From a virus: 64,000 nucleotides of DNA. The notes below the pieces were generated by a model. That model saw nothing but the letters and a program-made list of their open reading frames with translations, was not told the origin of the DNA and made no database searches. Location: the IMG/VR virus record IMGVR_UViG_3300033182_001261, positions 1-64,000 of that record; one strand, given 5' to 3'. Within the stretch, counting starts at the first letter, position 1. Each line of letters starts with the position of its first letter. The translations under genes were made by a program, and so were the position numbers. This document shows, piece after piece, positions 8,563 through 64,000 of this stretch.

Positions 8563-9579
8563 ATGTTTATGCAAGCCTACACTTACGATGATATCCTTCT
8601 TGTCCCTAGTAAATCTCTATATTCTAGAAATGACCCAAGTTTAGAAACAAAACTTTCTAGAAATATATTCATAGATATTCCAATCACATCTGCTAATATG
8701 GATACTATTACGGGTTATGATTTGGCAAAAACCTTGAGTGAAATGGGTGGAGTTGGATTTCTACACAGAAATATGACGATTCAAGAAAACTGCGACTTAG
8801 TTAAGAAGTGTCTAAAAGAATGGCAAATCTATTGGAGTCCAGTGATTCCGACAATAGGAGTTTCTGGTAGTGAAAAGGAAAGAGCAGAACAACTTCTTGA
8901 ATTAGGAATTTCTGGTATTTGTATTGATATCGCAAATGCTTATTCTGACAGAGTTTCTGAAATGATTAAGTTTATAAGAAGTAAAAATCGACATGTTGAT
9001 ATTATAGCAGGAAATGTTGCCAGTGGTCCTGCTGCTCTCTTTCTGGCAAGTCATGGTGTTGATGCTATTAAAGTCGGAATTGGTCCTGGAAGTGTTTGTA
9101 CAACTAGAAGAATGACTGGTTTTGGAGTTCCTCAACTGACTGCTGTTAGAATGGTAAAATCGGCATTAGTTCAGAGTAAGTATTCTGATATTCCAGTTAT
9201 TGCTGATGGTGGTATCAAAAGTTCTGGTGACATTGTAAAGGCTTTATGGGCAGGTGCTAGTACTATTATGACAGGTAAATTGTTTGCGGGATGTAAAGAG
9301 GCAAATGACCCGAACTCATACAGAGGTATGGCATCCAATTCTGCGAGACAAGTTCTACTGAATGATGGTGATGTTAATACTGTTGCTGAGGAGGGTATTG
9401 CTATTGAAGTTGAAGATGCAGGAAGTGCTAAGGATGTGATAAACGAACTTTGTAATGGGATTCGTTCTGGTATGTCTTACGCAGGATGTAAATATATCAG
9501 TGAATTAACATTATCAGATGATGTTGTTGCTGTGGTACAGACGCAAAATGGTATTGTTGAAAGTGGGACGAGAAAATAA
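8563..9579 (+). CDS. IMP dehydrogenase / GMP reductase family enzyme
   Basis: 338 aa TIM-barrel enzyme without CBS domains. N-terminal '[12 protein letters not shown]', substrate loop '[11 protein letters not shown]' with the catalytic Cys at ~179, '[18 protein letters not shown]' and '[17 protein letters not shown]' are diagnostic of the GuaB/GuaC family. 'GSVCTTR', the short length and lack of CBS favour GMP reductase; 'IIAGNVASG' is closer to IMPDH, so the reaction is left open. Either way it rebalances purine nucleotides, fitting its position directly upstream of ribonucleotide reductase. Confidence 0.88.
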
Positions 9580-9602: not shown

Positions 9603-11972
9603 ATGTTATTACCATCACTTTATCAAGAATTTATCCACCTATCCAGATATTCTAGGTGGTTGGAAAATAAGGGAAGAAGAGAAACTTGGGAAGAAACCGT
9701 CGATAGATATATGAGTTTCTTTGACTCACACTTAATGGAAAAATATTCGTACAAGATTCCAGAGGAGACGTATAAAAAAGTTAGAAAATATATCTTAGAA
9801 CTCAAAGTGATGCCTTCAATGAGAGCATTGATGACTGCAGGTCCTGCTCTGAAAAGAGATAATGTTGCTGGATATAACTGCGCTTACACTGCTGTTGATA
9901 AACTACGTGCGTTTGATGAAATCCTTTATATTCTAATGTGCGGAACAGGTGTTGGATTCAGTGTTGAAAAATATCATACAAAGAAATTACCAACAGTCGC
10001 AGAAACATTTGAAGATTCTGACACCACAATTGTTGTAGGAGATTCCAAAAAAGGGTGGGCAAAAGCATATCGTGAACTTATTTCTCTTTTGATTTCTGGT
10101 CAGGTTCCAAAGATTGATTACTCAAAAGTAAGACCTGCTGGAGCAAGATTGAAAGTTTTTGGTGGTCGAGCCTCTGGTCCAGAACCATTAAGACAATTGA
10201 TGGAGTTTACAATCAGCACGTTTAGAAATGCTGCTGGAAGAAAGTTGTATCCAATTGAGTGTCATGATATCGTATGTAAGATTGCTGAGATTGTAGTTGT
10301 AGGTGGAGTAAGACGTTCTGCTCTTATTTCTCTATCTGACTTGAATGATGATAGAATGAGAAGTGCCAAATCAGGTCAATGGTGGGTTATTGATCCACAT
10401 AGAGCGTTAGCAAACAACTCTGTATGTTATCGTGAAAGACCTGATATTGGAACCTTCATGGAAGAGTGGTTATCATTATATCGTTCAAAGTCTGGAGAAC
10501 GAGGTATCTTCAATCGACAAGCATCAAAGAAAACAGTTGAAAAGTTAGATGGTAGAAGAGAAATGGAACATGACTTTGGAACTAACCCTTGCTCCGAAAT
10601 CATATTGAGGTCAAAAGAGTTCTGTAATTTATCAGAAGCAGTTGTTTCTAAAGATGATACACTTGAAACTCTGATGGAAAAGGTTGAAGTTGCTGCTATC
10701 ATAGGGACTTGGCAATCAACATTAACACACTTTCCATATTTGTCAAAGCAATGGAAAGAAAACTGTGAAGAGGAAAGACTTTTAGGAGTATCTCTCACAG
10801 GTATTATGGATAATGAATTGACTAACGGTAGGGGATTGAGACCTCTTAAAGAATTCTTACCTAAGTTGAGAGATAAAGCATTGAAGATGAATGAAAAGGT
10901 ATCTGAAGATATCGGAGTGAACCCTTCTGCTGCAATCACTTGTGTAAAACCTTCTGGATGTAATGATTTAGATAATACTGTAAAAACTAAAGATGGTATC
11001 AGAAGTTTCAGAGAAATATTTGAAGATAATGGTATTGATTTAGAATCCATGAAAGAAGATGAATGGTTTGATTTGAAGAAACCTGTTCAAGTTTATGATA
11101 TGAATAATGATCTTCAAAATGTTTCTAAACTTTATTGCAATGGAGTAAAAGAAGTTTATGAAATACAAATGGAAGATGGTGAAGTTTATAAATTCACAGG
11201 AAATCATAAACTTTTACTTTCAACTGGTGAATGGAAAAGAGTTGATGAGTTAGAAGAAGGTGATGATATAAAATCTTTCATGTCAGGAAGAGTTTTCAAC
11301 CTAATTGCTAAAATCAAAAAAATAGAACAAAAAGTTATGACTGTTGATATGGAAGTTGAAAACACTAATTCATATCAAATGGAAAATGGTATGGTTGCTC
11401 ATAACACAGTATCACAATTAGTAAATGCTGCTAGTGGTATTCACGCAAGACATTCTGAATATTATATCAGAACTGTTAGAGGTGACAAGAAAGACCCATT
11501 AGCGCAATTTATGGTTGAGATGGGTTTCCCGCATGAGGATTGTGTAATGAAACCAGAGCATCAATGGGTGTTCAGTTTTCCAGTCAAGTCACCTGAGAAT
11601 GCTGTATTCAGAAATGATATGTCTGCTATTGAACAGTTGGAATTGTGGTTAGACTATCAAAGATATTGGTGTGAACACAAACCTTCTGTGACAGTTTCTG
11701 TAAAAGAACATGAATGGTTTGAGGTTGGTTCTTGGGTATGGAAACATTTTGATGAAGTTTCCGGTGTATCCTTTCTACCAAGTTCCGACCATACATACAA
11801 ACAAGCACCTTATCAAGAATGCGGAGTTGAAGAGTATGAAGAACTTTTAGCAAAGATTCCTCAAGATGTTGATTGGTCTGGTTTAGAAAAATTTGAGAAG
11901 GAAGACAACACCAAAGGTGCGCAAACTTATAGTTGTACTGCTGGTAGTTGTGAGATAGTTGACCTTACGTAA
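9603..11972 (+). CDS. nrdJ: Class II (B12-dependent) ribonucleotide reductase with intein
   Basis: 789 aa precursor; about 640 aa after removal of a 149-aa intein, in the range of monomeric class II enzymes. Features: 'AGYNCAY' (Cys ~93) as a redox Cys, finger-loop 'NPCSEI' (Cys ~330, Glu ~332), 'NAASGIHARHSEYYIRT' typical of adenosylcobalamin-dependent reductases, and C-terminal Cys pair (778, 783) in 'SCTAGSC'. It reduces ribonucleotides to deoxyribonucleotides without a separate radical subunit but needs adenosylcobalamin. AGGAG lies upstream of the ATG. Neighbours (GuaB/GuaC-like, later dUTPase) make this a nucleotide-supply block. Confidence 0.9.
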   Translation: MLLPSLYQEFIHLSRYSRWLENKGRRETWEETVDRYMSFFDSHLMEKYSYKIPEETYKKVRKYILELKVMPSMRALMTAGPALKRDNVAGYNCAYTAVDKLRAFDEILYILMCGTGVGFSVEKYHTKKLPTVAETFEDSDTTIVVGDSKKGWAKAYRELISLLISGQVPKIDYSKVRPAGARLKVFGGRASGPEPLRQLMEFTISTFRNAAGRKLYPIECHDIVCKIAEIVVVGGVRRSALISLSDLNDDRMRSAKSGQWWVIDPHRALANNSVCYRERPDIGTFMEEWLSLYRSKSGERGIFNRQASKKTVEKLDGRREMEHDFGTNPCSEIILRSKEFCNLSEAVVSKDDTLETLMEKVEVAAIIGTWQSTLTHFPYLSKQWKENCEEERLLGVSLTGIMDNELTNGRGLRPLKEFLPKLRDKALKMNEKVSEDIGVNPSAAITCVKPSGCNDLDNTVKTKDGIRSFREIFEDNGIDLESMKEDEWFDLKKPVQVYDMNNDLQNVSKLYCNGVKEVYEIQMEDGEVYKFTGNHKLLLSTGEWKRVDELEEGDDIKSFMSGRVFNLIAKIKKIEQKVMTVDMEVENTNSYQMENGMVAHNTVSQLVNAASGIHARHSEYYIRTVRGDKKDPLAQFMVEMGFPHEDCVMKPEHQWVFSFPVKSPENAVFRNDMSAIEQLELWLDYQRYWCEHKPSVTVSVKEHEWFEVGSWVWKHFDEVSGVSFLPSSDHTYKQAPYQECGVEEYEELLAKIPQDVDWSGLEKFEKEDNTKGAQTYSCTAGSCEIVDLT
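10959..11405 (+). other. Mini-intein within ribonucleotide reductase
   Basis: Residues 453-601. It starts with Cys immediately after 'CVKPSG' and ends in His-Asn before Thr, so excision rejoins 'KPSG' to 'TVSQL', the uninterrupted reductase sequence. Internal marks are an N-terminal block with 'VKTKDG', a B-block-like 'FTGNHKLLL', and 'VDMEVENTNSYQMENG' before the C-terminal 'VAHN'. At 149 aa there is no room for a homing endonuclease. +1 residue is Thr. Splicing activity is inferred from complete terminal residues. Confidence 0.9.
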
Positions 11973-12007: not shown

Positions 12008-12697
12008 ATGGATGAATATACAAAAGCTGCTGTCGCAAGACATGAAAGAGCAATAAAACAACTAAAAAAGAAAATTGCTACCGCTCAAGCACTTCACAAG
12101 TCAATGCCTGGAAAAACGGTGAAGCAAAGAAAAGAAAGAGACAATGTAAAATATAAAATGGAATCGGAATTACAGGATAAAGCATATTCCTTGAAACTTT
12201 CTCCGATGAATTGGTATATAATGAAAGCATATGCGGAATCAGGTCTTCCAAAGATTGCTGATGTAGCTAAAGAGTATATAGAAAATAATGACGAACCGAT
12301 TGATAAATCAAAAAAGAAAACTGCTAAAAAGGCAGCAACTCCAAAAAAGAAAACTGCTAAAAAGAAAACTGTAAAAAAAGGTGATCCTCCTAAATTCGCA
12401 GCATTGGAAAAGAAAGCACGTACATTTGCTTCAAATGAGAAAAAGTTGGAATACTATATGAAAAAGAAGGCAGTGGAATATTCCAAACTTGGAAACAAAT
12501 CTGCTGAAGAACAAAAACGAAGAAAGAAAGAATTCATAGAAGACAACGGTCCGAAAAGTGCAGGATGGCAAAAAAGACTTACAAAGTTGGGAGTCCTTGA
12601 AGCTAAATTGAAAAAACTGCGAAAGCTTTATGTTGCTTTTTACAAACTGGGTTTTGATGAAAAATATTTACTAAGTCTATTTAGAATAACAGATTAG
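12008..12697 (+). CDS. Lysine-rich, histone-tail-like protein
   Basis: 229 aa, strongly basic. The middle (~100-125) is a repeated K/T/A tract ('KKKTAKKAATPKKKTAKKK') like histone H1 or phage DNA-binding tails; flanking parts are helical and charged. No enzymatic motif. It could bind nucleic acid in the head or host, but that is inference from composition. TTTAGGAG precedes the start and a TATAAATA box lies upstream. Confidence 0.65.
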   Translation: MDEYTKAAVARHERAIKQLKKKIATAQALHKSMPGKTVKQRKERDNVKYKMESELQDKAYSLKLSPMNWYIMKAYAESGLPKIADVAKEYIENNDEPIDKSKKKTAKKAATPKKKTAKKKTVKKGDPPKFAALEKKARTFASNEKKLEYYMKKKAVEYSKLGNKSAEEQKRRKKEFIEDNGPKSAGWQKRLTKLGVLEAKLKKLRKLYVAFYKLGFDEKYLLSLFRITD

Positions 12698-12706
12698 GAG
12701 AGAATT

Positions 12707-13015
12707 GTGGATAACAAAGTTATAAATGAAATTTCGGAAATATTACAAGATATTCGTGAAGAAAAAGAATTAGATAAACTTATTGAATCTATCGAAAAGA
12801 TTGAAACTCTGAGTGAGGAACTTGATATAGAAGCTTACAGAAAACTGAAAAAATCCTTCTACAAAACGTTAAAAGATGTAGAAAATTTATACGACAAACA
12901 TTTTTTTAATTGGGATAAAGAGATGGCAGATTTTTTACACAGAAAAGATGGAGCTCAAGATTTGCCAAAAAGTTGGAAGATGGACGTTGAGTATAGTCTA
13001 ACAAAAATAGTATAG
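12707..13015 (+). CDS. Small protein with shared 'NEISEILQDIR' N-terminus
   Basis: 102 aa, GTG start with AGGAGAG upstream. The first 17 residues, 'MDNKVINEISEILQDIR', closely match the N-termini of the proteins at 34362 and 34785 ('MEKKTxxDxAxxLxEIR' pattern), suggesting a common short helix joined to different bodies. The rest is charged and helical. Function unknown. Confidence 0.6.
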   Translation: MDNKVINEISEILQDIREEKELDKLIESIEKIETLSEELDIEAYRKLKKSFYKTLKDVENLYDKHFFNWDKEMADFLHRKDGAQDLPKSWKMDVEYSLTKIV

Positions 13016-13036
13016 GAAAAACTTTTCTAAAAACTC

Positions 13037-13065
13037 TTGACACACACTCCTTTTTTTGTTATAAT
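13037..13065 (+). promoter_or_regulatory. Sigma70 promoter with conserved leader
   Basis: TTGACA (13037-13042), 17-bp spacer, TATAAT (13060-13065), followed by the AGTAATATAAGG leader and AAAAAGGAG before the ATG at 13093. Confidence 0.8.
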
Positions 13066-13092
13066 AGTAATATAAGGTAAAAAGGAGTTGAT

Positions 13093-13278
13093 ATGTCAAA
13101 TTTTACATTAGTAGTCATAAATGGTGAGAACCTAAATATATACAAACTAGATACCTTTAATGAATCTATCCAAAAAATAGTTGAATTGAGAGATTCTTAT
13201 AAAAACTTTGACACAAAAGAAATAAAATGGATTCTCTATAAAGGCAACGATATACTTGCCAGTAAGGATATAGAATGA
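13093..13278 (+). CDS. Small hypothetical protein
   Basis: 61 aa, first gene behind a strong promoter and a strong AAGGAG site. Contains an alternating polar/hydrophobic pattern ('FTLVVINGENLNIYKLDTF') suggesting a small beta-rich domain. No family recognised. Overlaps the next gene by ATGA. Confidence 0.6.
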   Translation: MSNFTLVVINGENLNIYKLDTFNESIQKIVELRDSYKNFDTKEIKWILYKGNDILASKDIE

Positions 13279-13433
13279 ATAGAATGACTAAACGTGAAAA
13301 AATTTTGGTAATATGGATGGTTATTATGACTTGGGGTCATATCGTCTATAACAGATTCTTGATTGAATCTAACACACTTTTCTTACAAGACTTATTCAGA
13401 GCATTTAGAAATTTGGCTAACTCTTTCACATGA
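13275..13433 (+). CDS. Small single-span membrane protein
   Basis: 52 aa starting 'MNRMTKREKILVIWMVIMTW', a basic N-terminus followed by one hydrophobic segment (~9-24). Start codon overlaps the preceding stop (ATGA) and the end overlaps the next ATG, giving a tight four-gene chain to the RuvC-like gene. Function unknown. Confidence 0.55.
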   Translation: MNRMTKREKILVIWMVIMTWGHIVYNRFLIESNTLFLQDLFRAFRNLANSFT

Positions 13434-13573
13434 TAAATCCAATAACTATTGAACATCCTATTTTTGTAATCAAACCTCATTCCGAAAGAAGAAAAGTTGA
13501 AGAGGTTGCTAAACCTAACAAAGATAGAAAGAACCTAAAAAATCCTAATTTTAGGTATGAATGGATAGCGTGA
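13430..13573 (+). CDS. Very small basic protein
   Basis: 47 aa, 'MINPITIEHPIFVIKPHSE' followed by a K/N-rich tail. The ATGA overlap at its start and a 13-bp overlap with the RuvC-like gene at its end support translation by coupling. No function can be assigned. Confidence 0.5.
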   Translation: MINPITIEHPIFVIKPHSERRKVEEVAKPNKDRKNLKNPNFRYEWIA

Positions 13574-40630: not shown

Positions 40631-41794
40631 TTAGTTTTCGAACCATGCTTTGGTGTCACCAGATTGGACAACCAATGATTCATCTTCTTCTTCAACTTCT
40701 TCTGTAACTTCTGAAATCTTTCCGTACAGGTCTACAAAACTGTCTCTTGTGATATCATCAAAACGATTCACAGTAAGTTTGATAGATTCTTCAACATCCC
40801 CAAAGATTTTATACGTTTGTAAGATAGAGATTAAACGACGAGTTGTTATCAAATCATTTATCGCACCACTTTCGAAACTATCTCTTGTGATTGTCGCCCA
40901 CTCTACAAGATTTTCGGTGATGACTTCCGCCTCTTCATCGAGAACACCAATTTGATTCTTCCAAAACTTTCTCAATATCTTATTCTCAATTGATTTACTT
41001 GGATAGGATTGTACAACTGTTATCGGGAATCTTTCAAGGAACGACTCATTCAGGAACCCAGTCCCATAAAACTTTCCAAGTTCGTCACCCTGACCCTTTG
41101 TATTAGCAGTAGCAAAGATTGTAAATCCTTCAGCAGGTTTCACCCAACGATTTACTTTCTTTAAGAAAACTCCCTTACCTTCAAGAACTGACTGGATACA
41201 CATTATTTTGTTAGATGCCAAATCAATCTCGTCAAGCAGGAGCACCCCACCCCTTTGCATTGCTTTTACAATTGGTCCATCGAACCATATAGTTTCACCA
41301 TTCACCAGTCGGAACCCACCTAGTAAATCATCTTCATCAGTTTCAATAGTAATGTTGACTCTATACAACTCTCTAGAAAGATTCGCACAAGACTGCTCTA
41401 CCATCATTGTCTTACCATTACCAGAGAGACCAGTAATAAACAATGGGTGAAATACTCTAGACTCAATAATCTTCTCAATAGTCTTGTAGTGTCCCCATGA
41501 GATATAGTTCTCATCTACTTCTGGAGTGAATGCAAGACTTTCGGGAGTTGATTTCAGTTCTTCGGTGTTCTTTGCCTTTTCAGAATTCTTAGAGGGGGAT
41601 TTCGAAGATTTTGGAAATATATATAATCCCCTTTTGGTTGATTTGTCACATAGAGTGATAACCTTTCTCAAAAGTTTGTCAATACTTTCAGAGTCGATAC
41701 CAATCTCTTCCGAAAAACTTCTCAAGTCTTTCCTTGTGACTTCCTTGCCAGAGAATTCCTCTGAGAGCATACCAAAGAACTTTTCAAATTTCAT
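40631..41794 (-). CDS. CobS/MoxR-like AAA+ ATPase, copy A
   Basis: 387 aa. Residues 1-110 are a variable helical domain. The AAA+ core has Walker A 'GLSGNGKTMM', 'ETDEDDLLGGFRLVNG' (CobS-like insert), Walker B 'GGVLLLDEIDLAS', sensor 1 'IFATANTKGQGDE' and Arg finger region 'NESFLERFP'. MoxR/CobS ATPases work with VWA proteins to load metals or remodel complexes; phage copies are often named cobS. About 60% similar by eye to copy B. A VWA partner lies upstream at 46472, separated by other genes. Confidence 0.85.
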   Translation of the reverse strand: MKFEKFFGMLSEEFSGKEVTRKDLRSFSEEIGIDSESIDKLLRKVITLCDKSTKRGLYIFPKSSKSPSKNSEKAKNTEELKSTPESLAFTPEVDENYISWGHYKTIEKIIESRVFHPLFITGLSGNGKTMMVEQSCANLSRELYRVNITIETDEDDLLGGFRLVNGETIWFDGPIVKAMQRGGVLLLDEIDLASNKIMCIQSVLEGKGVFLKKVNRWVKPAEGFTIFATANTKGQGDELGKFYGTGFLNESFLERFPITVVQSYPSKSIENKILRKFWKNQIGVLDEEAEVITENLVEWATITRDSFESGAINDLITTRRLISILQTYKIFGDVEESIKLTVNRFDDITRDSFVDLYGKISEVTEEVEEEDESLVVQSGDTKAWFEN

Positions 41795-46471: not shown

Positions 46472-47659
46472 TTAAGACAAAAAAGTTACCAACTCTGAAA
46501 GAATTTTTTTTGATAGTTTCATGGAAACATGATTGTTAGTGAATTTGTTTTTAATCTGGTTTAGACTCTTTTTAGATTTTTCTGGAATCATTATCTCATT
46601 CTCATAATTTTCCATCTCGAAATTGGCAACAGAAAAATAAGCATCATATCCTCTATAATCATATTTTGTCTGGTCATTCGAGCAACCATTTATAAAAAAA
46701 CATATAGTGTTTCCACCAACACATTTTTTATAGAACTTTAAGATTGATTCTGTATCTAAAACCTTTGTTCTGAAATATTGACCAGAAAGAGGATCATAGG
46801 AATTTATATTGATAAGTCTTTCAGAATTTCCCCTCCAAAGGTCATAACTAGCACCACCAGAACTTTTATTGCTTCTAGGGTCACTTAGTGATGACCTATT
46901 AGATTCTCCGTCGGTTAAAACTACTGTGTTTAGAACTTCTATTTTAAAATCCTCTTTGAACTTTAATGATATCTGTCTAAGGACAAGTAAACTATCGTTT
47001 AGGGGTGTTGTTGATGTTGGTATATCACCTTGATGGGCCAACTTAGAAGAACTCTTATCATATGACCCAGCACTTATATATCCAGTTTTCTTAGAGAAAT
47101 CAACACCATCTTTACCAGAAGATACTGCTAGCAGATATGTACACATCATCTCATGGTCATTTTTATTCATTTCAGAGTTTAGCCATTCTCTCATATTGAA
47201 ATATCTTCCGAATTTCAAGCAACTCTTTTTATTTAAATATTTCAAATCACTAGTAGTGTCTATATATCTTTCACTCATTGAATTAGAATCATTGAATCCT
47301 AAGACCTTGTATTTAATTCCAACTTTTCTACAAAATTCTGTTAATAAGATTGACTGTTTAATGGAATCTGAATACTTCTTTCCTCCCATTGAAGATGAAC
47401 AGTCCACCAACATTATAACTCCGTGATTTTTGCCATCTTTGTTTATTTCAGATTTTCGAAATATGTTTTCACTCCATTTAAACTTATGAAGTGACTGAGT
47501 GTTTATAACCCCTGTTTTATTAAACTGAGTTTTTCTAAATTGTTCTGCTTTCTTTCTTCTCTCAAATTCAAGAGCCATGTGGTTAAGTATGGAAGAGTTT
47601 TTTGATTTGAAGTTTGCCCAATCTTTCCTAGTCTCAATCAACCACTGATTCTTTTTCAT
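46472..47659 (-). CDS. VWA-domain protein, copy A
   Basis: 395 aa. MIDAS motif 'IMLVDCSSSMGG' (D-x-S-x-S), a later 'TSTTPLNDSLLVLR' (MIDAS Thr) and 'VVLTDGESN' (MIDAS Asp). N-terminal ~80 residues are basic and helical. The order and motifs match copy B (61896). Together with the HEVSH protein it corresponds to the two halves of phage CobT-like proteins. It begins 3 bp after the upstream gene. Confidence 0.85.
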   Translation of the reverse strand: MKKNQWLIETRKDWANFKSKNSSILNHMALEFERRKKAEQFRKTQFNKTGVINTQSLHKFKWSENIFRKSEINKDGKNHGVIMLVDCSSSMGGKKYSDSIKQSILLTEFCRKVGIKYKVLGFNDSNSMSERYIDTTSDLKYLNKKSCLKFGRYFNMREWLNSEMNKNDHEMMCTYLLAVSSGKDGVDFSKKTGYISAGSYDKSSSKLAHQGDIPTSTTPLNDSLLVLRQISLKFKEDFKIEVLNTVVLTDGESNRSSLSDPRSNKSSGGASYDLWRGNSERLININSYDPLSGQYFRTKVLDTESILKFYKKCVGGNTICFFINGCSNDQTKYDYRGYDAYFSVANFEMENYENEIMIPEKSKKSLNQIKNKFTNNHVSMKLSKKILSELVTFLS

Positions 47660-47661
47660 AT

Positions 47662-48693
47662 CTATTTCTTTCTAAAGTTGTCGGAACGCAATTCCCTAAG
47701 GTCAACTTTCGAACCCCTTTTCATTATCTTGTAAACTTGTTTTAGAACTTCTTTTGAGTCTGTGTATACATACCCTTCCATATCAATTACAGGAACCTCA
47801 GAACTGAAATGAATTTTACTAGTAGCATTTTCTTCATTAACTAACTTACCTTCATTATCTCTGAAATTTTTATCAGTTATAGACTCTGGTAAATTTTGTG
47901 ATTCTTCACCTGCCTTATTCGTGGAACTAGACTTTTGATTTTGTTCCTTATCGGATTTTTCTGAGGAGGGGTCATCTTCACCTCCATCAGAATCATTTCC
48001 TTCTCCTTGAGAGTCTTCCGATTCCTGTTCAGATTTTTGACTTGAACCGCTTTCATCCTCGGAACCATCTTTCGATTTCCCTTGACTCTTTATAGTATCA
48101 TCACTTTCCTGTTTCTTATCTAACTCATCTTTACAATATTCAAAAAGTTCTTTTGCCAACTTGACAACATCATCCCAAGTTTTTAACTTGTTCAATTTTT
48201 CTTCGAAGTGTCTCTCTTCGTTTTTTATATTTACATTTGATGCTAGTTTACCTAACTTTGCTCTAACATTCAATCTATCTATCAAGAGCATGTTATCAAG
48301 TTCTTCTTGGGAGTATTCTTTAATACCGAACATGTCCTCATCAAAAAGTTTTTTATATCCTGTTATATAAGACTTTTTGAGTCCTGGAAATTTTCTCTGA
48401 ATCATTTTCTCGATTCTGGCATCCTCAACAATATTCAAAAACCCTTTGAACTTTTCATCCTGCTCTTCGTCTGTTGCTGAATGATACCCTTCAACAGGAG
48501 TGTTTAGTGCGTGTGAAACTTCATGTGATATTAAGAGGTCATAAACATCCTCACCTAAATCTACATAGTCTGGGAGATAGAGGATTCTATTTTCAATATC
48601 AAATGCTGCAGTTCTATAATCTCCATGGACTATATCAACATTTTCAGTTGCCATTAGTTTAGCAAGAGTTTCTTTATAATCTAATTTTTTCAT
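47662..48693 (-). CDS. HExxH peptidase-like partner of VWA protein, copy A
   Basis: 343 aa. 'DVYDLLISHEVSHALNTP' has an HExxH zinc-site pattern and 'LNIVEDARIEKMIQRKFPGL' provides a likely third-ligand glutamate. The C-terminal ~120 residues are very acidic and Ser-rich ('SEDESGSSQKSEQESEDSQG'), as in CobT. Begins 'MKKLDYKETLAKLMATENVD'. No ribosome site; CATAAATA ends 6 nt before the ATG. Whether it cleaves protein or only binds metal is unknown. Confidence 0.8.
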   Translation of the reverse strand: MKKLDYKETLAKLMATENVDIVHGDYRTAAFDIENRILYLPDYVDLGEDVYDLLISHEVSHALNTPVEGYHSATDEEQDEKFKGFLNIVEDARIEKMIQRKFPGLKKSYITGYKKLFDEDMFGIKEYSQEELDNMLLIDRLNVRAKLGKLASNVNIKNEERHFEEKLNKLKTWDDVVKLAKELFEYCKDELDKKQESDDTIKSQGKSKDGSEDESGSSQKSEQESEDSQGEGNDSDGGEDDPSSEKSDKEQNQKSSSTNKAGEESQNLPESITDKNFRDNEGKLVNEENATSKIHFSSEVPVIDMEGYVYTDSKEVLKQVYKIMKRGSKVDLRELRSDNFRKK

Positions 48694-55791: not shown

Positions 55792-56160
55792 TTAGTTTTC
55801 TTCTTCCCACCATCCATATTCTGGTAAAGGATCAGCAAAATAACAATTATCATAATCTTCTGGAATCCAAAAACCATATCCGTATCCCTTTCCTAATGCT
55901 ACTCCATTACCCTCACCGCAGTGATTCGGATTGTCTAGGTCTCTATGATCCCCCTCATAAGATAGAGTTAGTTCCCCATACCATTCCCCAGTATTATAGT
56001 CTTGTCTAGTTATAATCCACTGGATTAATTCAAAACCGTCACCAGTCCTTCCATATGATGCTTCTCCCCAACCAAACCCTCCAATTTCCCCAGTTTCAGG
56101 ATAATAATTCCGTAGTGTTGAAATTGTTTCAAAAGTGCATTTATTTTTCTTTGTACTCAT
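55792..56160 (-). CDS. Glycine-rich small protein, family member 1
   Basis: 122 aa. Start 56160 preferred on GGATGGA spacing. 'GEIGGFGWGEASYGRTGDGF' and 'GEGNGVALGKGYGYGFW' show the G-x-G pattern of the cluster; aromatic residues are frequent. Overlaps the next gene. Function unknown. Confidence 0.55.
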   Translation of the reverse strand: MSTKKNKCTFETISTLRNYYPETGEIGGFGWGEASYGRTGDGFELIQWIITRQDYNTGEWYGELTLSYEGDHRDLDNPNHCGEGNGVALGKGYGYGFWIPEDYDNCYFADPLPEYGWWEEEN

Positions 56161-56392
56161 AGTTCCATCCATATCCTTGACAGACTCCTGTTCCTGACCC
56201 TGTTCCTTGATTATGCCTACCTATATATCCCGACCCATTAGCGTTTCCTGTTGCATAATCTTCTCCTGCATCCGTGTATCCTGATTTACATCCCCCTCTT
56301 CCGTCAGAGTTACCAGAACCTCTTCCACTTTCATTGGGCCATCCTCTTCCTTCAGAGTATCCCATTCCATATTGAGGTTTATTAATCGTCAT
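56141..56392 (-). CDS. Glycine-rich small protein, family member 2
   Basis: 83 aa, over a quarter Gly. 'GMGYSEGRGWPNESGRGSGN' then 'GTGSGTGVCQGYGW', with two Cys. Overlaps both neighbours. Function unknown. Confidence 0.55.
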   Translation of the reverse strand: MTINKPQYGMGYSEGRGWPNESGRGSGNSDGRGGCKSGYTDAGEDYATGNANGSGYIGRHNQGTGSGTGVCQGYGWNYEYKEK

Positions 56393-56594
56393 AATAATCT
56401 ATACCAGAACCTTTTGCTATTCCGGCACCACATCCATCTTTTTCCCATTCGTCACCATAGAAAAAAGTTTCACACCTTGGAACAGAATCGTACCCTTCTG
56501 GACAACCTGTTCCGTATCCTACTGATTGCCCATCACCCCATCCGATGAATTCAATATTATCATCGTTATCACATATGGGATCAAATATATTCAT
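56382..56594 (-). CDS. Glycine-rich small protein, family member 3
   Basis: 70 aa. 'GWGDGQSVGYGTGCPEGYDS' and 'KDGCGAGIAKGSGIDYYDD', with four Cys. Same spacing of G-x-G blocks as its neighbours. Function unknown. Confidence 0.55.
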   Translation of the reverse strand: MNIFDPICDNDDNIEFIGWGDGQSVGYGTGCPEGYDSVPRCETFFYGDEWEKDGCGAGIAKGSGIDYYDD

Positions 56595-56604
56595 ACATCA
56601 TTCC

Positions 56605-56886
56605 TTACGAGACTTTTCCAAAAAATTCATACTCTTCTGAATATAACTTGGGAGGGTCTGCCAAACAGATTATACCATGCCTATCATGCTCATATCCGGA
56701 ACCAGTGGACATACCTCTGCCATATCCAGTATCAACCCATTCTTCATACTGCGATTTCATCTCAATACCTTCACCATCAGAGCACCCCTTTCCACATCCA
56801 TTAGAGAACATGCCAGAACCTCTAGCAGAACCCCCTCCGAATGTTGAAAAAATCCCATCATAATAACTATGATTGCGAAACTTCAT
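56605..56886 (-). CDS. Glycine-rich small protein, family member 4
   Basis: 93 aa. 'GGGSARGSGMFSNGCGKGCS' and 'GYGRGMSTGSGYEH'. Start 56886 fits the overlap with the upstream gene. Function unknown. Confidence 0.55.
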   Translation of the reverse strand: MKFRNHSYYDGIFSTFGGGSARGSGMFSNGCGKGCSDGEGIEMKSQYEEWVDTGYGRGMSTGSGYEHDRHGIICLADPPKLYSEEYEFFGKVS

Positions 56887-57217
56887 GGGAATATTCCTCA
56901 CAAGAGTAAATAATATCCCTAGCATATTCAGTAAGAGGTCCGAGTTCCTCCCATCCGTTCAGCACTTTATACTCCTCTGGAAGCATAACAGTGCTTTCAG
57001 AAGGATTTGACATCCCATTTACGGACAAGTCAGAACAATCAACTGCTCCAACCCATCTTCGGATCCGTCTGGAATTCTCAAGGACAAGAATATTTCCCTG
57101 AGCTCCGATTTGTGATAGTTTTCCAACGAAAACTCCTGCCATATTAGAACGAACTAATATGTACTTTCCGATAAAACTTTTTACCCATCCATTTTCAATT
57201 TCATTTATTTGCATCAT
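56867..57217 (-). CDS. DUF6948-like conserved phage protein
   Basis: 116 aa. 'ILVRSNMAGVFVGKLSQIGA' and 'LENSRRIRRWVGAVDCSDLS', then a Pro/Glu-rich end, match a conserved phage family that I recall as DUF6948 ('VRSNxAGVFxG...ARRxWxWxGA'). Start 57217 after GAGGATT. Function unknown; next to the glycine-rich cluster. Confidence 0.65.
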   Translation of the reverse strand: MMQINEIENGWVKSFIGKYILVRSNMAGVFVGKLSQIGAQGNILVLENSRRIRRWVGAVDCSDLSVNGMSNPSESTVMLPEEYKVLNGWEELGPLTEYARDIIYSCEEYSHEVSQS

Positions 57218-57382: not shown

Positions 57383-58732
57383 TTAAAAAAAACTTTCCAA
57401 ACTAAAAGTTTTTTCAACTTCGAAAAATTTAGACCACATATCTTCCCCATTTTGGACAAATTTAGGATCGGCAAAAGCAGGAATGCTGTGTTCTATCCCA
57501 CAAGGAATTCCTAATGCTAAATCAATATAGTCTTGTGCTATTTTCTTTCTATCAAACTGCTTAATCATTTCAAAGTTATTGTTTGCTATTCTCTCATACT
57601 CTTCTTTTGTGATTGTCAAAAAATCGTTAATAGCATCTGCGTATTGTTTTGGAGTATAGTCATACTTCAACATCAAATAATTTTCGTCAGGAGTAAATAA
57701 AGACCCTACCCCATCCTCATTACACGATATACCAAGATTGACAGCAATAGGAACTGTTCCCATTCTCATTGCTTCAACCAAAGTTCTGTTGAAATGTTCT
57801 CCGTAAGTTTTAGACCAAGTTGAATCAATAAAGAACATTGACTCTCTCAATATTGAATCTCTTCTATTTTCTGATATGAATCCGATATATTCCATACCGT
57901 AGGTCAAAGCATTGTCCCATATCTTATTCCCTAGAAGTTCTTGCGAAGCATCTGGGTCTCTTTGTAAGGAGCAGTAATACTCTTCCTTACATTTGTCTTT
58001 GGACGTCATATATGCCCTCTCAATACCGTCCCCACCAACAATAACATCACAATAATTCAGATGAGGGACACAAGAAACTAAATCATCAACCCTTTTCATT
58101 TTCTTAAAAGTCTGGAGTGAAAAAATTTGTCTCTTACGATTCCCAAAATTTATATCTGGATTCACATCACTAATATCTTGAGGATTCAGAATCATTGACC
58201 TAGGAATATCCATAAACTCTGCCGACTTATAAGCAGAATCGTGGACACAAGCAACACCAGAAAGACTATTCTTGAATTTATAAACCCAAGGGTACAATTT
58301 CTGTAAGTTGCCATCATGGACTATCATAACCTGTTTTGATTTCACACTTTCAATCATTGGCAACCAAGTTGTATTCTTTTTGGAACTCTTATTCTTGAAT
58401 CCGAATATACTTTCCCATATTACAATATCATGCTGATTAGCCATTCGAACAAAATCATCCACACTATCTTGATTGAGAAAGGAATAATAGTTTGTCATCC
58501 ACCCTTTACCTTGATGGACAGGAATTCCTGTTCCTGGACCGATTTCATATTCGTTCTGTAAAAGTTCATCAACATTTTGAATATTCACAGTTTTAGGTTT
58601 CTGTGTTGATGGTTTTAGGAAAGCGAAAGTGACTTCATGCCCCAAATCTTTTAATCCTGCTATTAACTGCTCTGTGTGATTTATAATGCCACCATAGTTG
58701 TAAAATTGGTGGACTGGAACTAATATTTTCAT
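57383..58732 (-). CDS. Glycosyltransferase, GT4-like (GT-B)
   Basis: 449 aa. N-terminal 'MKILVPVHQFYNYGGIINHT' donor/acceptor loop, middle 'QIFSLQTFKKMKRVDDLVSC', and C-terminal 'GTVPIAVNLGISCNEDGVGS' of group 1 transferases, though the usual E-x7-E is loose ('NRTLVEAMRMG'). It overlaps the dioxygenase gene upstream by 4 bp, so the two are coupled. In phages this pairing usually means sugar addition to a hydroxymethylated base. Confidence 0.8.
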   Translation of the reverse strand: MKILVPVHQFYNYGGIINHTEQLIAGLKDLGHEVTFAFLKPSTQKPKTVNIQNVDELLQNEYEIGPGTGIPVHQGKGWMTNYYSFLNQDSVDDFVRMANQHDIVIWESIFGFKNKSSKKNTTWLPMIESVKSKQVMIVHDGNLQKLYPWVYKFKNSLSGVACVHDSAYKSAEFMDIPRSMILNPQDISDVNPDINFGNRKRQIFSLQTFKKMKRVDDLVSCVPHLNYCDVIVGGDGIERAYMTSKDKCKEEYYCSLQRDPDASQELLGNKIWDNALTYGMEYIGFISENRRDSILRESMFFIDSTWSKTYGEHFNRTLVEAMRMGTVPIAVNLGISCNEDGVGSLFTPDENYLMLKYDYTPKQYADAINDFLTITKEEYERIANNNFEMIKQFDRKKIAQDYIDLALGIPCGIEHSIPAFADPKFVQNGEDMWSKFFEVEKTFSLESFF

Positions 58733-60189
58733 AAACCAAGAAATCCTTCAAGTGTTGGTGATTCTTCTTTTAGCGCTTCGGGATGATACTTCTCTAATAT
58801 ATCACTTCCCATCTTTTCTGTCAAGTAGTCATACCATTCTTGCTCATACCACATATTAGGAGATACTCCATTCCAACTTTCTCTCCATAAAGGATGATTT
58901 TGATTCATTCTTCTATCATCCACAAATTGTCTTCTTGTCTTTTCATATTCCCATGAACCTAACACCTTCATATCTTCACGGAAATAAAAGACCAAGGACA
59001 TTCTCAAAAAATCTTCCTCACCAGAATCAGGTGCTTCTATTGGAGTATTAGCATGTATAATCCTCATATTGTCTATTAGGAGTAAATCTCCTGGACGAAC
59101 ATTGATGGCAGCACGAACTTCTGGAGTGACAAGATATCCACCTTTCCAGTTTTTACCTTCTTTTGTCACAACCGTCAGATTGGAAAAACCATCATTCAAA
59201 GAACCTGCATCACGATGACATGCCATTCTAGCATTTCTATCAGCAGAAGTAGTATTCACTGTTATAGTTGTAAATACTGTATCCTCACCTATTAGAAACT
59301 TTTTATCTAGTTCATTAGTATATCCATTCTGGACACCCCATCGAACAGGCATTAATCTCTTAAATTCGGAGTTCAATTTTCTAGCAAATGGGAAAGACTT
59401 TGCGAACTTTTCCATATTCCTTTCTGTGTAAGCAACGGCTCTGCCATATGGTATTCTAGGATACCTGCCATAATACCCTGCGATACCAGACCATATTGGA
59501 TTCGCATAAACAGTTATGGAAATATATTTCTTCTTAAACTCTTCAATATACTTCTTTGCTTCTTGCACATCCATACTTTTCAACAAAGGGATAAGTTTAT
59601 TATCAAAGAATCCAACATACCTATTTCTCATAAGTCTGTCTTTATTGTCAGGATCACCAAAATCACGTGCAACCCTATAACCAATCCAAGTCATATACCT
59701 TGCTTTTGAGGAATCAATATCACCAGATTCATGCTTTTTCCTGATAGATTCTAGGACATCCGAACCATCCAAAGATTTCGGTTGACCATCCTCAAAATAT
59801 TTTATAACTTCTGCTTCATATGGAGAAACATAATCTCTCAGACTGTTTTCGTGACCATTCCCTGCAGCATATCCCCGATTATCAGAAACTACCGCAGCAT
59901 CATAAAGTCCTTCATAAGCACCTTTCTGCTCTTCTTCTGTAAAGACATTTTTTCTAAACTTAAATGCTACCCTATCTTCTGTCAAAGAATCTTTATCCCA
60001 AATATCATTTGATGGTAAATAAAAATCAGCGTCAGAATCTATCAGAATATCATAAAAAGATTCATCAGGAAAATTACCGAGAACAGTTTCATCCTTTTTT
60101 ATGAATTCTGCCACATAAACATCTTGACCCTCATCACCTTTGAATTTTTTCCAGACGTTTCCGTTAATTTCAATTGTTTCTATTTTCAT
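58729..60189 (-). CDS. TET/JBP-like 2OG-Fe(II) dioxygenase
   Basis: 486 aa. The core carries 'TVFTTITVNTTSADRNARMA' followed by 'CHRDAGSLNDGFSNLTVV' (iron ligands H-x-D), 'KGGYLVTPEVRAAINVRPGD', 'MRIIHANTPI' (second His) and 'DFLRMSLVFYFRED' (2OG-binding Arg). This is the TET/JBP pattern for oxidising a methyl group on pyrimidines in DNA. The start at 60189 follows TATAAT by 6 nt, so the longer GTG start at 60207 would lie inside the promoter. DNA as substrate is inferred from the family and the coupled glycosyltransferase. Confidence 0.8.
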   Translation of the reverse strand: MKIETIEINGNVWKKFKGDEGQDVYVAEFIKKDETVLGNFPDESFYDILIDSDADFYLPSNDIWDKDSLTEDRVAFKFRKNVFTEEEQKGAYEGLYDAAVVSDNRGYAAGNGHENSLRDYVSPYEAEVIKYFEDGQPKSLDGSDVLESIRKKHESGDIDSSKARYMTWIGYRVARDFGDPDNKDRLMRNRYVGFFDNKLIPLLKSMDVQEAKKYIEEFKKKYISITVYANPIWSGIAGYYGRYPRIPYGRAVAYTERNMEKFAKSFPFARKLNSEFKRLMPVRWGVQNGYTNELDKKFLIGEDTVFTTITVNTTSADRNARMACHRDAGSLNDGFSNLTVVTKEGKNWKGGYLVTPEVRAAINVRPGDLLLIDNMRIIHANTPIEAPDSGEEDFLRMSLVFYFREDMKVLGSWEYEKTRRQFVDDRRMNQNHPLWRESWNGVSPNMWYEQEWYDYLTEKMGSDILEKYHPEALKEESPTLEGFLGL

Positions 60190-60195
60190 ATCAAT

Positions 60196-60224
60196 ATTAT
60201 ACACCATAAGTTAAATCATGTCAA
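60196..60224 (-). promoter_or_regulatory. Consensus sigma70 promoter, leaderless geometry
   Basis: Leftward TTGACA, 17-bp spacer, TATAAT, then six nt (ATTGAT) to the ATG at 60189. No room for a ribosome site. Confidence 0.8.
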
Positions 60225-60604: not shown

Positions 60605-61819
60605 TTATTCCGAATCCTCGGACTCTTCTGTATCATCGGTTTCTGCAAACTCAATAGCAGAAACCTTTTTGAATAAATCAATAAAACTCATTTTAGTTAC
60701 ATCATCAAATCTGTTTAGATTCAACTCAATAGACTTTTGAACATTACCAAATATACTATATGCTTTCATTATGAAAACCAACCTTCTAGTAGTAATAAGG
60801 TCATTTAAGACCGATTCATTGTAAGAGGATCTAGTTATATTTGCCCAAGCAACCAAATGTTCAATCAAAGTATTGACTTCCTCAGAAGACTCTACTCCTA
60901 GACTATCCCAAAACTTAGATAGGATTTTAGTCTCCACTCCCTTTTTGGGATATGATTGTTCAACAGTCACAGGAAATCTTTCTAGAAATGCTTCATTCAA
61001 GAATCCTGTTCCAACAAACTTCCCATGCTCATCACCCTGACCCTTAGTGTTAGCAGTTGCGAACACTTGAAAACCGTGAGCAGGTTGGACGAACTGGTTT
61101 ATTTTCTTCAAGAAAACTCCCTTACCTTCAAGGATTGGTTGAAGACACATAATGTCATCAGATGCTAAGTCAATCTCATCAAGAAGAAGCACAGCACCTG
61201 TTTTCATTGCCTTTACGACTGGGCCGTCAAACCAAACAGTTTGACCATCTACTAAACGAAATCCCCCTAGCAAATCGTCCTCATCAGTTCTGCAGGTGAT
61301 ATTAACACGATACATATCACGACCATTCTTGGCACATGCTTGCTCAACCATCATTGTCTTGCCATTACCAGAAAGACCAGTGATGAAGATTGGGTAAAAC
61401 ATTTTAGACTTGATGACAGCATCAACAGTCTTATATTCCCCCCATCGAACATAGTTTTTATCGACATTAGGAACATAACTGATTTCAGATGTTTCTGCGT
61501 TTGGAGTCACAACTTCTTTGACAGGAGTTTTGGAAACTTTTTTAGAAACTTTTGGTTTCGAAGCAGATTTGCCATTACTCAGGAAGTTATCAAAAACTGA
61601 CACTTCTGGGATTTGATATTCTCCTCTACCCACTTTATTTGCCCCTTCCACTCCCCAAAGAGTAGCAATCATATCATTGATTTGAGGTTCAGTTAACGTG
61701 CCATCAGACCTTCTAGCAATATCTTTAAGATATGCTGACTTATAGGTATCTCCAGCAGAAACCTCATTGAATAATTCATTTACAAAGTTTTTACAATAAT
61801 TTAGTTTTTTCTCTCTCAT
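60605..61819 (-). CDS. CobS/MoxR-like AAA+ ATPase, copy B
   Basis: 404 aa. Variable N-terminal domain (~1-140), then Walker A 'GLSGNGKTMM', 'RTDEDDLLGGFRLVDG', Walker B 'AVLLLDEIDLAS', sensor 1 'VFATANTKGQGDE' and 'NEAFLERFP', nearly the same as copy A. Start 61819 after AGGAG; the longer frame crosses the promoter at 61862-61890. Located directly between VWA copy B and the fourth component, the undisturbed form of the locus. Confidence 0.87.
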   Translation of the reverse strand: MREKKLNYCKNFVNELFNEVSAGDTYKSAYLKDIARRSDGTLTEPQINDMIATLWGVEGANKVGRGEYQIPEVSVFDNFLSNGKSASKPKVSKKVSKTPVKEVVTPNAETSEISYVPNVDKNYVRWGEYKTVDAVIKSKMFYPIFITGLSGNGKTMMVEQACAKNGRDMYRVNITCRTDEDDLLGGFRLVDGQTVWFDGPVVKAMKTGAVLLLDEIDLASDDIMCLQPILEGKGVFLKKINQFVQPAHGFQVFATANTKGQGDEHGKFVGTGFLNEAFLERFPVTVEQSYPKKGVETKILSKFWDSLGVESSEEVNTLIEHLVAWANITRSSYNESVLNDLITTRRLVFIMKAYSIFGNVQKSIELNLNRFDDVTKMSFIDLFKKVSAIEFAETDDTEESEDSE

Positions 61820-61861
61820 GATAATCTCCTGTATGTTTGTTTTTTCTACCCTTATATTATT

Positions 61862-61890
61862 AGTATAACAGATACTGAACCCTATGTCAA
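61862..61890 (-). promoter_or_regulatory. Sigma70 promoter for AAA ATPase B
   Basis: Leftward TTGACA, 17-bp spacer, TATACT, then AATAATATAAGGG. Confidence 0.82.
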
Positions 61891-61895
61891 CCCTT

Positions 61896-62978
61896 TTATG
61901 AAATAATATCAATAAATTTCGAAAGAAGCACTTTTTGATTATTTTTGTTAATATTATTAGTGTTAAACTTTTTCTGCAACTCTTCTACAGAATCAATATG
62001 TCCATCAAATTTAGTCTTTTTACTTGAACCATAAACATTGTCATAACTAAAAGTGTAATAATTATCATAACCTAGATAGTTTTCTTTTATATGAATAGGT
62101 TCTTCTTCATACCAGTAATTCACTATGTTAAAACTGATTACATTTCCACCGACAACTTTTTTATAGAAATTCAACAAACCTTCAAGACTGTTGGCATTGG
62201 AAGTCCTATAAACAGATTTTGTTAAAGGGTCAAATGAAGATAGTTTAGTATAGGAACCTTGGCCATTTGAAGAAACGAATCGTGTAGGATTCGAATCTCC
62301 GTCAGTTAGAGTGATAGTGTTTAATATATCAATATTTTCATCTTTTTTGAATTTCAAAGCCACTTGTCTCAAAAGAAGAATGCTGTCAAGAAGTGGAGTA
62401 GATGAGTTTGGACCATCGTGCTGATTAATTGACCTATGCTTTTTTGTTTTGAATAACATATAAGTGGACATAAAGTCATGCTGACTCAGTGATTGTTCAT
62501 GACTAAACCACTCTCTTAATACTGGGAGATAGTTAAGTTCTAGATGTTTTTTAGAACCACAATTTTTATATTCAATCTCTCCACCTCTTGCTGAATATCT
62601 ACCATCACTAAACCCCATAACTTTATATTTGATTCCTGCTTTTCTACAAAACTCAACCAACATAAGAGTTTGCTTAATAGTATTCTCAAACTTCTTCAAT
62701 TGTTGCATAGAACCTGAACAATCAACAAGCATAATCATTCCGTGATTTTTACCCTCAGGAACTATTTTTCTGGTCTTGAACAGTTTTTCATTCCACTTGT
62801 AAGTGTGAAGAATTCTCTCGTTGATAACACCTGTATCTTTTTTTCTTATTCTTTTTGATATACTGGCAGACTTTTTTCTTTCGAAATCTAAAACCATCTT
62901 AGTTATGGATTGTTTATTTTCTTTTTGGAATTTTTTCCATTTCTTATTCCACTTGATATACTCTTGTTGATTTCTCAT
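61896..62978 (-). CDS. VWA-domain protein, copy B
   Basis: 360 aa. MIDAS 'IMLVDCSGSMQQ', 'SSTPLLDSILLLRQ' and 'TITLTDGDSN' parallel copy A throughout, including a basic N-terminus. AGGAG and own promoter upstream. Metal-dependent protein binding is expected from the intact MIDAS. Confidence 0.86.
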   Translation of the reverse strand: MRNQQEYIKWNKKWKKFQKENKQSITKMVLDFERKKSASISKRIRKKDTGVINERILHTYKWNEKLFKTRKIVPEGKNHGMIMLVDCSGSMQQLKKFENTIKQTLMLVEFCRKAGIKYKVMGFSDGRYSARGGEIEYKNCGSKKHLELNYLPVLREWFSHEQSLSQHDFMSTYMLFKTKKHRSINQHDGPNSSTPLLDSILLLRQVALKFKKDENIDILNTITLTDGDSNPTRFVSSNGQGSYTKLSSFDPLTKSVYRTSNANSLEGLLNFYKKVVGGNVISFNIVNYWYEEEPIHIKENYLGYDNYYTFSYDNVYGSSKKTKFDGHIDSVEELQKKFNTNNINKNNQKVLLSKFIDIIS

Positions 62979-63010
62979 TTTTAGTCTCCTTTTTCTACCC
63001 TTATATTAAT

Positions 63011-63039
63011 AGTATAACCTATATCCGAAACTTTGTCAA
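63011..63039 (-). promoter_or_regulatory. Sigma70 promoter with conserved leader
   Basis: Leftward TTGACA, 17-bp spacer, TATACT, then ATTAATATAAGGG and AAAAAGGAG. Drives VWA copy B. Confidence 0.85.
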
Positions 63040-63045
63040 GAGTTT

Positions 63046-64000
63046 TTACCAATTATATTCTTCTGCTTTTTTCATCCAACCCCTAACCTCCTTTTCTATT
63101 TTTCTCCAATCATCATAGAAATACTTTTCCTCAACCACTGGCAAATCTAATGAAGTGCTTTGTTGCCAAGACCTTACAGATTCTTCCCTATTATAAAGTT
63201 CATCCTCTTTATCTCTAAAATTTTTATCAGTTTCTGAAAAAGGTAGGTCATTATCAAAGTCATTTTTATTTGGACCACTGTTCTCTTCATTTAATGATTG
63301 AGGTTCACCACTTTCCTGTTTTTCCTCTGTTTTTTCATTTTGTTCATCTTCACCAGAGTCACTGAATTTAATATTCTGAGATTTATCTGTTGAGGATTTT
63401 GGTTCACCTTCTCCATTTTCCTGCTTCTGCTTTTCTTCATCCTTTCTCTTCTTTTCTTCTTTACAGTATTCGAAGAGTTTTTCTGCCAGAGATACAACAT
63501 CTTCCCAAGTTTTGAGATTTGACATTTCTTTAATATATTCTCTTTCCTCTTGTGTAAATTCAACTCCGCAGTTGAGTTCTCCTAATTTCGAATGTAGGTT
63601 GAGTCTATCAATCAACAACATTCCTTGAAGTTCATCCTGACTCATATTCCGAACTCCGAAGAAATCATTATCAAAAAGTTCTTTGTAACCTATCTTGAAT
63701 GAACTTCTCAGTCCAGGAAACTTATCTTGTATCATCCTTTCAATTCTAGCATCTTCAACAACATTCAGAAAACTTTTGAAGTTTGCTCCTTTTTCGTCTA
63801 TTGCTGTGTGCCATCCCTCTTTCGGTGTATTGAGAGCATGTGAAACTTCATGCCCTATTAAAAGGTCATAAACATTTTCAGAAAGGTTTGCGAATTCTGG
63901 AAGAAACAGAGTTCTGGACTCCAAATCAAATGCGGCTGTTGGGTAATGTTGTCTATGAACAACAGAAATATTTTCCTGAGACATTAACTTACCGACGATA
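63046..64000 (-). CDS. HExxH peptidase-like partner of VWA protein, copy B (5' end outside)
   Basis: The ATG at 63984 is not the true start: upstream codons to the window edge read 'IVGKL', aligning with 'TLAKLM' of copy A, so the gene continues past 64000. 'DVYDLLIGHEVSHALNTP' and 'LNVVEDARIERMIQDKFPGL' repeat the copy-A zinc-site pattern; the acidic linker ('SDSGEDEQNEKTEEKQESGE') is also kept. C-terminus ends 'RGWMKKAEEYNW'. Confidence 0.82.
   Translation of the reverse strand, partial: IVGKLMSQENISVVHRQHYPTAAFDLESRTLFLPEFANLSENVYDLLIGHEVSHALNTPKEGWHTAIDEKGANFKSFLNVVEDARIERMIQDKFPGLRSSFKIGYKELFDNDFFGVRNMSQDELQGMLLIDRLNLHSKLGELNCGVEFTQEEREYIKEMSNLKTWEDVVSLAEKLFEYCKEEKKRKDEEKQKQENGEGEPKSSTDKSQNIKFSDSGEDEQNEKTEEKQESGEPQSLNEENSGPNKNDFDNDLPFSETDKNFRDKEDELYNREESVRSWQQSTSLDLPVVEEKYFYDDWRKIEKEVRGWMKKAEEYNW

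Follow-up and report, generated by a model that had tools for sequence, protein, structure and literature searches.

The stretch of DNA analysed here (the window) comprises positions 1–64,000 of the virus record IMGVR_UViG_3300033182_001261 of IMG/VR, which is 77,326 bases long and probably represents a fragment. On its minus strand, to which all coordinates of the gene pair refer, the open reading frame (ORF) of a TET/JBP-family Fe(II)/2-oxoglutarate dioxygenase (TET; 492 residues, positions 58729–60207) is followed by that of a GT-B glycosyltransferase (GT) of the Glycos_transf_1/GT4-like type (449 residues, positions 57383–58732). TET stop and GT start share a 4-bp ATGA overlap (58729–58732), which had already been noticed in a preliminary description of this DNA made from the letters alone. 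The span of 57383–60189 given there holds for both ORFs except for the start of the TET, since the ORF begins at 60207 and position 60189 marks a later in-frame ATG.

The TET matches the Pfam family Tet_JBP (PF12851) with 49.5 bits (cut-off 34.9, E 3.7e-13) and PHROG_24024 (1.1e-137). The dioxygenase core H-x-D...H...R of the preliminary description was recovered: the iron triad His331, Asp333 and His385 and the 2-oxoglutarate-binding Arg402 do not vary in any of the 23 sequences aligned first or in the 119 of a larger set, the Fe-binding motif H331-x-D333, read from the translation, being encoded at 59209–59217. A structure model of the TET (mean predicted local distance difference test score, pLDDT, of 74) is most similar to TET2 in complex with DNA, with a Z-score of 18.1 and a root-mean-square deviation (r.m.s.d.) of 3.8 over 263 residues. 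Further matches are NgTet1 (Z 17.5), CMD1 (Z 16.8) and CcTet (Z 16.4), and lower values were obtained for AlkB-type and other oxygenases such as ALKBH3 (Z 12.5) and a 2OG-Fe(II) oxygenase (Z 12.4). At the sequence level, weak matches to clavaminate synthases are found in addition. The TET relatives AAY80_030 of phage DLP6, gp129 of Cr30 and gp009 of S-CBWM1 carry the label 'SNF2 DNA repair protein', apparently in error.

The assignment of the second gene to the GT-B transferases likewise stood up to scrutiny, as the predicted fold is GT-B and the match to Glycos_transf_1 (PF00534) lies above the cut-off (35.6 bits versus 26.4, E 8.5e-9). The spacing of Glu312 and Glu320 fits E-x7-E, which we take to be a motif of retaining GT4-type enzymes. 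The structure model of the GT (pLDDT 83) can be superimposed on T4 alpha-glucosyltransferase with DNA containing 5-hydroxymethyluracil (Z 25.4, r.m.s.d. 3.6, 329 residues). However, PimA is tied with it as the best match (Z 25.3) and many GT4-type enzymes lie close by, among them HepE (Z 24–25 for the three enzymes named), so that the fold alone leaves a DNA acceptor unproven. No Pfam match of the GT to TAGT (PF20691) or to the T4 glucosyltransferase families was obtained up to E 1, and membership in either was therefore rejected; TAGT-type proteins are encoded at other loci of the TET clade.

Relatives of the GT were found in 39 IMG/VR loci. Relatives of the TET are encoded in at least 580 of the 600 candidate IMG/VR stretches listed, 80 of which were kept for comparison. 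The closest relative of the window GT (71% identity) is located in L054, which also provides the best match of seven other window ORFs, and the closest relative of the window TET (62%) in L049. With the window included, a TET is present in 42 of 44 GT-holding loci; the other two (L007 and L040) were included via their GT, which is situated at the contig end, and a TET is missing from the sequence retrieved for them. Of the paired loci, 27 have the GT immediately after the TET, 14 have one or two genes between them and one has the GT before the TET, and the same 4-bp overlap is found in 11 of the 27 loci with directly adjacent genes (window included). A GT that is a neighbour by chance was considered and rejected, because the pairing is too consistent. 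Moreover, the pair recurs in several genomic settings. In the largest group of relatives the gene order, with families tested on one locus (L014), is gp43 polymerase, UvsX, gp41 helicase, TET and GT; the hydroxymethylase and beta-glucosyltransferase genes of T4 occupy the same gp41/uvsX/gp43 neighbourhood.

Additional genes accompany the pair at some loci. A 282-residue protein without confident family match (cluster c46, 8 members; positions 9008–9856 of L005 and similar) is situated between TET and GT in several of them. In three other loci this place is taken by a small nucleotidyltransferase (c33), possibly a sugar-donor enzyme, of which the tested member is heptose adenylyltransferase-like. 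The GT of polymerase-linked loci is followed by a 230-residue protein (positions 11357–12049 of L014; cluster of 31), again with no confident family match.

The GT is not the only candidate capping enzyme next to these dioxygenases. At a distance of at most eight genes from 123 TETs, a GT was found in 42 cases, an ADDT in 41, a TAGT in 11 and none of these in 30, some of which are cut contigs; ADDT and TAGT occur together at one locus. A second TAGT cluster is omitted from these counts and included in the tree labels below. Here and in the following, cluster names such as polymerase, ADDT, TAGT and kinase are based on tests of between one and three members per cluster. The ADDT-type loci also encode a P-loop kinase (PF18751), a GATase_6 protein, a GNAT and sometimes ParB_N, these accessory families having been tested on single members. 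A TET tree was calculated from 101 of the 123 sequences after removal of duplicates and of TETs shorter than 400 residues; it is a quick tree in which forks are left open and some branches are long. Over its 77 labelled rows, at least 15 changes between GT, ADDT and TAGT are required, and the starred branches demand a minimum of 7 changes for GT, 13 for ADDT and 5 for TAGT, each versus the rest. TAGT is not clearly clustered on the tree, as 40 of 500 shuffles gave values as low. This is most simply explained by a shared hydroxymethyl handle whose caps are exchangeable, the window GT being one option. Members of the ADDT and TAGT clusters lie near the TET of Cr30. In phage C48C1 (L043), a UDP-galactopyranose mutase is encoded two genes 3′ of the TET (12438–13448), which suggests a galactofuranose cap in this phage.

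Both enzymes of the window end in a peptide resembling the C-terminus of DNA polymerases: TLEGFLGL in the TET (58732–58755) and SLESFF in the GT (57386–57403) are putative clamp-binding peptides. The T4 polymerase gp43 ends with KASLDFLFG, and similar tails are found in relatives, where polymerases end in SLEDFFG and the like, TETs in SLEEFFG and GTs in LESLFG or SLDEFFG. Counted with one fixed hydrophobic and acidic pattern on ORFs with a stop inside the locus, the tail is present in 37 of 37 polymerases, 42 of 42 GTs and 112 of 121 TETs. The two TAGT clusters display it in 8 of 9 and 4 of 4 members, ADDT in 17 of 41 and GNAT in 11 of 33. Among all ORFs except TET, GT and polymerase it occurs in 58 of 1787, with TAGT, ADDT and GNAT accounting for 40 of these 58; the remaining matches are distributed over a cluster holding gp55 of DLP6 (7/33), a baseplate-hub cluster (4/4), kinases (2/33) and five single ORFs. 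Shuffled tails match at rates of 0.3 and 0.6%. With identical proteins removed, the tail is counted as follows (TET 97/103, GT 32/32, polymerase 33/33, TAGT 7/8 and 4/4, ADDT 15/36, GNAT 10/29, others 17/1468). Outside the clade, the tail is found in 2 of 54 TETs of the P12024L/HTVC112P type and, with the strict pattern, in 45 of 65 TETs and 0 of 66 methyltransferases of the Melnitz type. An 85-residue protein encoded on the minus strand of L003 (63–320) also has a polymerase-like tail, KLEEFFLL, and is possibly a further clamp client.

The C-termini of T4 gp43, gp55 and gp33 bind the sliding clamp gp45 (PMC2988020), and gp45 co-purifies with T4 alpha-glucosyltransferase (PMC13216743). It is thus probable, judged from the C-terminal sequences, that TET and GT bind the sliding clamp via these peptides. 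Several observations count against this assignment. The pattern is not fully specific, since all four members of the cluster with the baseplate hub (tested member) match it, and not fully sensitive, since only 7 of 33 members do so in the cluster containing gp55 of DLP6, gp55 being a known type of clamp client; 9 of 121 TETs have no tail. T4 alpha-glucosyltransferase binds gp45 although its C-terminus does not show the pattern, and in the view of the authors of PMC13216743 alpha-glucosylation levels are mostly not set by clamp binding.

The preliminary description found no DNA methyltransferase in the window, which for the C5-cytosine family PF00145 holds true across the entire 77,326-base record, probable fragment though it is. 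In the clade records searched, PF00145 was found in 0 of 125 (45 + 44 + 36), which are mostly IMG/VR contigs, many of them short or fragmentary, but include contigs of 165, 147 and 103 kb and three complete genomes (C48C1, DLP6 and Cr30); the records of L007 and L040 are among the 125. The same search was positive in 10 of 14 control genomes. The TETs of the small P12024L/HTVC112P-type genomes were dropped as a methyltransferase control, because PF00145 is present in only 1 of 50 records and as a partial match; TETs without a C5 methyltransferase are thus not limited to the present clade. The Melnitz type was taken instead. In Melnitz-3, polymerase, C5 methyltransferase (PF00145, 7.4e-55) and TET stand in a row, and a C5 methyltransferase is found in 66 of 71 Melnitz-type TET loci, lying no more than 1.5 kb from the TET in 64, while the remaining five contigs begin at the TET. 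Synthesis of hydroxymethylcytosine at the nucleotide level was rejected, as the thymidylate-synthase-type family PF00303 is present in 1 of 45 records (Cr30 only), a search that did not extend to ThyX, other families or the 80 further records. Since no C5 methyltransferase was found in the clade, thymine would be the most likely source of the methyl group.

Comparison of the predicted base pocket points in the same direction. In an alignment of clade TETs longer than 400 residues (119 of 123 kept) with Melnitz-type frames longer than 300 residues (62 kept, from 71 loci), all 119 clade TETs have Arg at position 410 and Asn at position 387, whereas 59 of the 62 methyltransferase-linked sequences have Asp at the former and all 62 have Val at the latter. 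Arg410 (58978–58980) is a predicted base contact aligned with His1904 of TET2, in a profile alignment that is weak (E 1e-4 for the whole chain). His1904 and Asn1387 of TET2 and Asp234 of NgTet1 are taken by us to be base-contact positions, their mapping onto the clade passing through this weak TET2 alignment. The arginine could act as a donor to O4 of thymine, and an aspartate as an acceptor for the cytosine amino group. The combination of Arg and Asn at 410 and 387 is also found in two P12024L/HTVC112P-type TETs and in the TET of S-CBWM1. Thus, whereas the base had initially been left open between thymine and 5-methylcytosine, the sequence comparison now favours thymine.

Several points weigh against thymine. 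Asp336, aligned by spacing with Asp234 of NgTet1, is kept in 80 of 119 clade TETs and in 62 of 62 methyltransferase-linked TETs; Ser takes this position in the window TET and 38 others. Asp234 of NgTet1 presumably contacts cytosine, and with Asp336 so often retained the pocket does not look purely thymine-like. The variant D234A of NgTET is called inactive in PMC11404850. In addition, a methyltransferase may lie elsewhere in the window phage, given that its record is probably a fragment, 5-methylcytosine could be supplied by a host methyltransferase, and the complete genomes C48C1, DLP6 and Cr30 carry no match to the window GT (tblastn). A host enzyme, an unrecognised phage enzyme or one encoded off the fragment would then generate 5-methylcytosine, which the TET would oxidise to 5-hydroxymethylcytosine and the GT would cap. 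This route agrees with published phage TET work, which concerns conversion of 5-methylcytosine to 5-hydroxymethylcytosine (PMC11404850 and PMC12730594), and with the C5 methyltransferases adjoining Melnitz-type TETs. Nevertheless, we consider it unlikely: PF00145 is missing from all 125 clade records searched, the three complete genomes among them, positions 410 and 387 differ from those of methyltransferase-linked TETs, and methylation by the host would be expected to confine the modification to the sites of the host. For DLP6, 18 restriction enzymes were tried (PMC5349666), but the sentence reporting this lacks the outcome and no conclusion is drawn.

Two further explanations place one or both enzymes away from DNA. 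The TET might oxidise DNA next to a GT that is a mere neighbour and acts on a host surface glycan or a virion protein, as would befit the broad GT4-type superfamily and the many non-DNA enzymes among the structural matches of the GT. This is distinctly improbable in view of the pairing in several genomic settings, the polymerase-like tail on every GT counted, the exchange of the GT with ADDT and TAGT caps and the presence of T4 alpha-glucosyltransferase among the tied best structural matches. Alternatively, neither enzyme would act on DNA, the oxygenase having RNA or a small molecule as substrate in an RNA-modifying or metabolic role. 2-oxoglutarate oxygenases are versatile, and the clavaminate synthase matches would suit such a role; yet the predicted fold groups with TET2, NgTet1, CMD1 and CcTet (Z 16–18) over AlkB-type enzymes (12.5), and the tails, together with the replication operon in relatives, leave this explanation hardly credible.

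DNA is accordingly very probably the substrate, and the phage DNA hypermodification proposed in the preliminary description is well supported by the predicted folds, the replication-operon context, the polymerase-like tails on TET and GT and the exchange with DNA-capping families. With somewhat more caution, thymine is favoured as the oxidised base. We therefore read the TET-GT pair, with moderate confidence, as an operon for hypermodifying DNA after replication, belonging to a relative of the T4-like phages, in which thymine would be oxidised and then glycosylated. The TET, tethered to the clamp behind the replication fork, would oxidise the 5-methyl group of, most likely, thymine in newly made phage DNA to a hydroxymethyl group. 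The GT would then place a sugar on this group, probably with retention, which we take to be expected for GT4-type enzymes such as the window GT. The product would be glycosylated 5-hydroxymethyluracil, a base-J-like nucleotide, and DNA modified in this way might be guarded against host nucleases. For the clade at large the balance is more even: clamp-tethered TETs of a large T4-like group may make hydroxymethyluracil in DNA from thymine, with neither methyltransferase nor hydroxymethylase and with interchangeable caps, the window phage producing a base-J-like glycosylated thymine.

Other features of the record surround the pair. Short Gly-rich ORFs are found on the same strand downstream of the GT (56141–56925). 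A CobS-like AAA ATPase (phrog_249) together with a split CobT/peptidase-like pair (phrog_459) is present in two copies, at 40631–41794 with 46472–48693 and at 60605–61912 with 61896–63999, one copy being located just upstream of the TET.

That phages encode TETs and accompanying glycosyltransferases is established (PMC11404850 and PMC12730594); Burke et al. (2021) reportedly described phage TETs with a C5 methyltransferase and glycosyltransferases. In the openly licensed literature no report was found of polymerase-like clamp tails on phage TETs or of a methyltransferase-free TET-GT pair, parts of which may be contained in Burke 2021 and Iyer 2013. The statement in PMC7824862 that jumbo phages are without TET/JBP has no bearing on the present phages. 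If the reading of thymine oxidation and glycosylation is true, a chemistry known from kinetoplastid base J would also occur in phages, a point relevant to the idea that TET/JBP enzymes originated in phages, and the clade would be a source of enzymes writing on unmethylated DNA. Phage DNA modification would, moreover, be predicted to be coupled to replication via the clamp. The thymine question is directly testable in cultured phages with TET relatives (Cr30 and DLP6).

Comparison with known systems revealed both common and distinct features. Phage systems of TET and C5 methyltransferase, described in PMC11404850 and PMC12730594, share with the window clade the TET/JBP family and its residues, the proximity of capping enzymes (for the published systems) and the tails (for Melnitz-type TETs). 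The window clade differs in that no C5 methyltransferase was found, in Arg410 and Asn387 in place of Asp and Val, and in a GT without TAGT Pfam match. T4, with its alpha-glucosyltransferase and dCMP hydroxymethylase, is similar with respect to glucosylation of T4-like phage DNA (in the clade a predicted glycosylation), the GT-B fold, the gene location near gp41/uvsX/gp43 and the binding of alpha-glucosyltransferase to gp45. In contrast to the clade, in which 44 of 45 records are without PF00303, T4 makes hydroxymethylcytosine at the nucleotide level; its alpha-glucosyltransferase has no tail, and the window GT does not match the T4 families. The thymidine hypermodification of ViI, M6 and phiW-14 has a parallel in the ADDT cluster beside clade TETs, which comprises 41 members, three of them tested against Pfam, and is accompanied by a P-loop kinase cluster. 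In ViI, M6 and phiW-14 hydroxymethyldeoxyuridine is incorporated as a nucleotide (PMC6449724), whereas the clade TET would make it inside DNA. Kinetoplastid base J, formed by JBP1/2 and JGT, shares the predicted logic, in which thymine would be hydroxylated in DNA and the hydroxymethyluracil subsequently glycosylated. The present enzymes differ in being encoded by phages and in a GT of GT-B fold, to which JGT is presumably unrelated.

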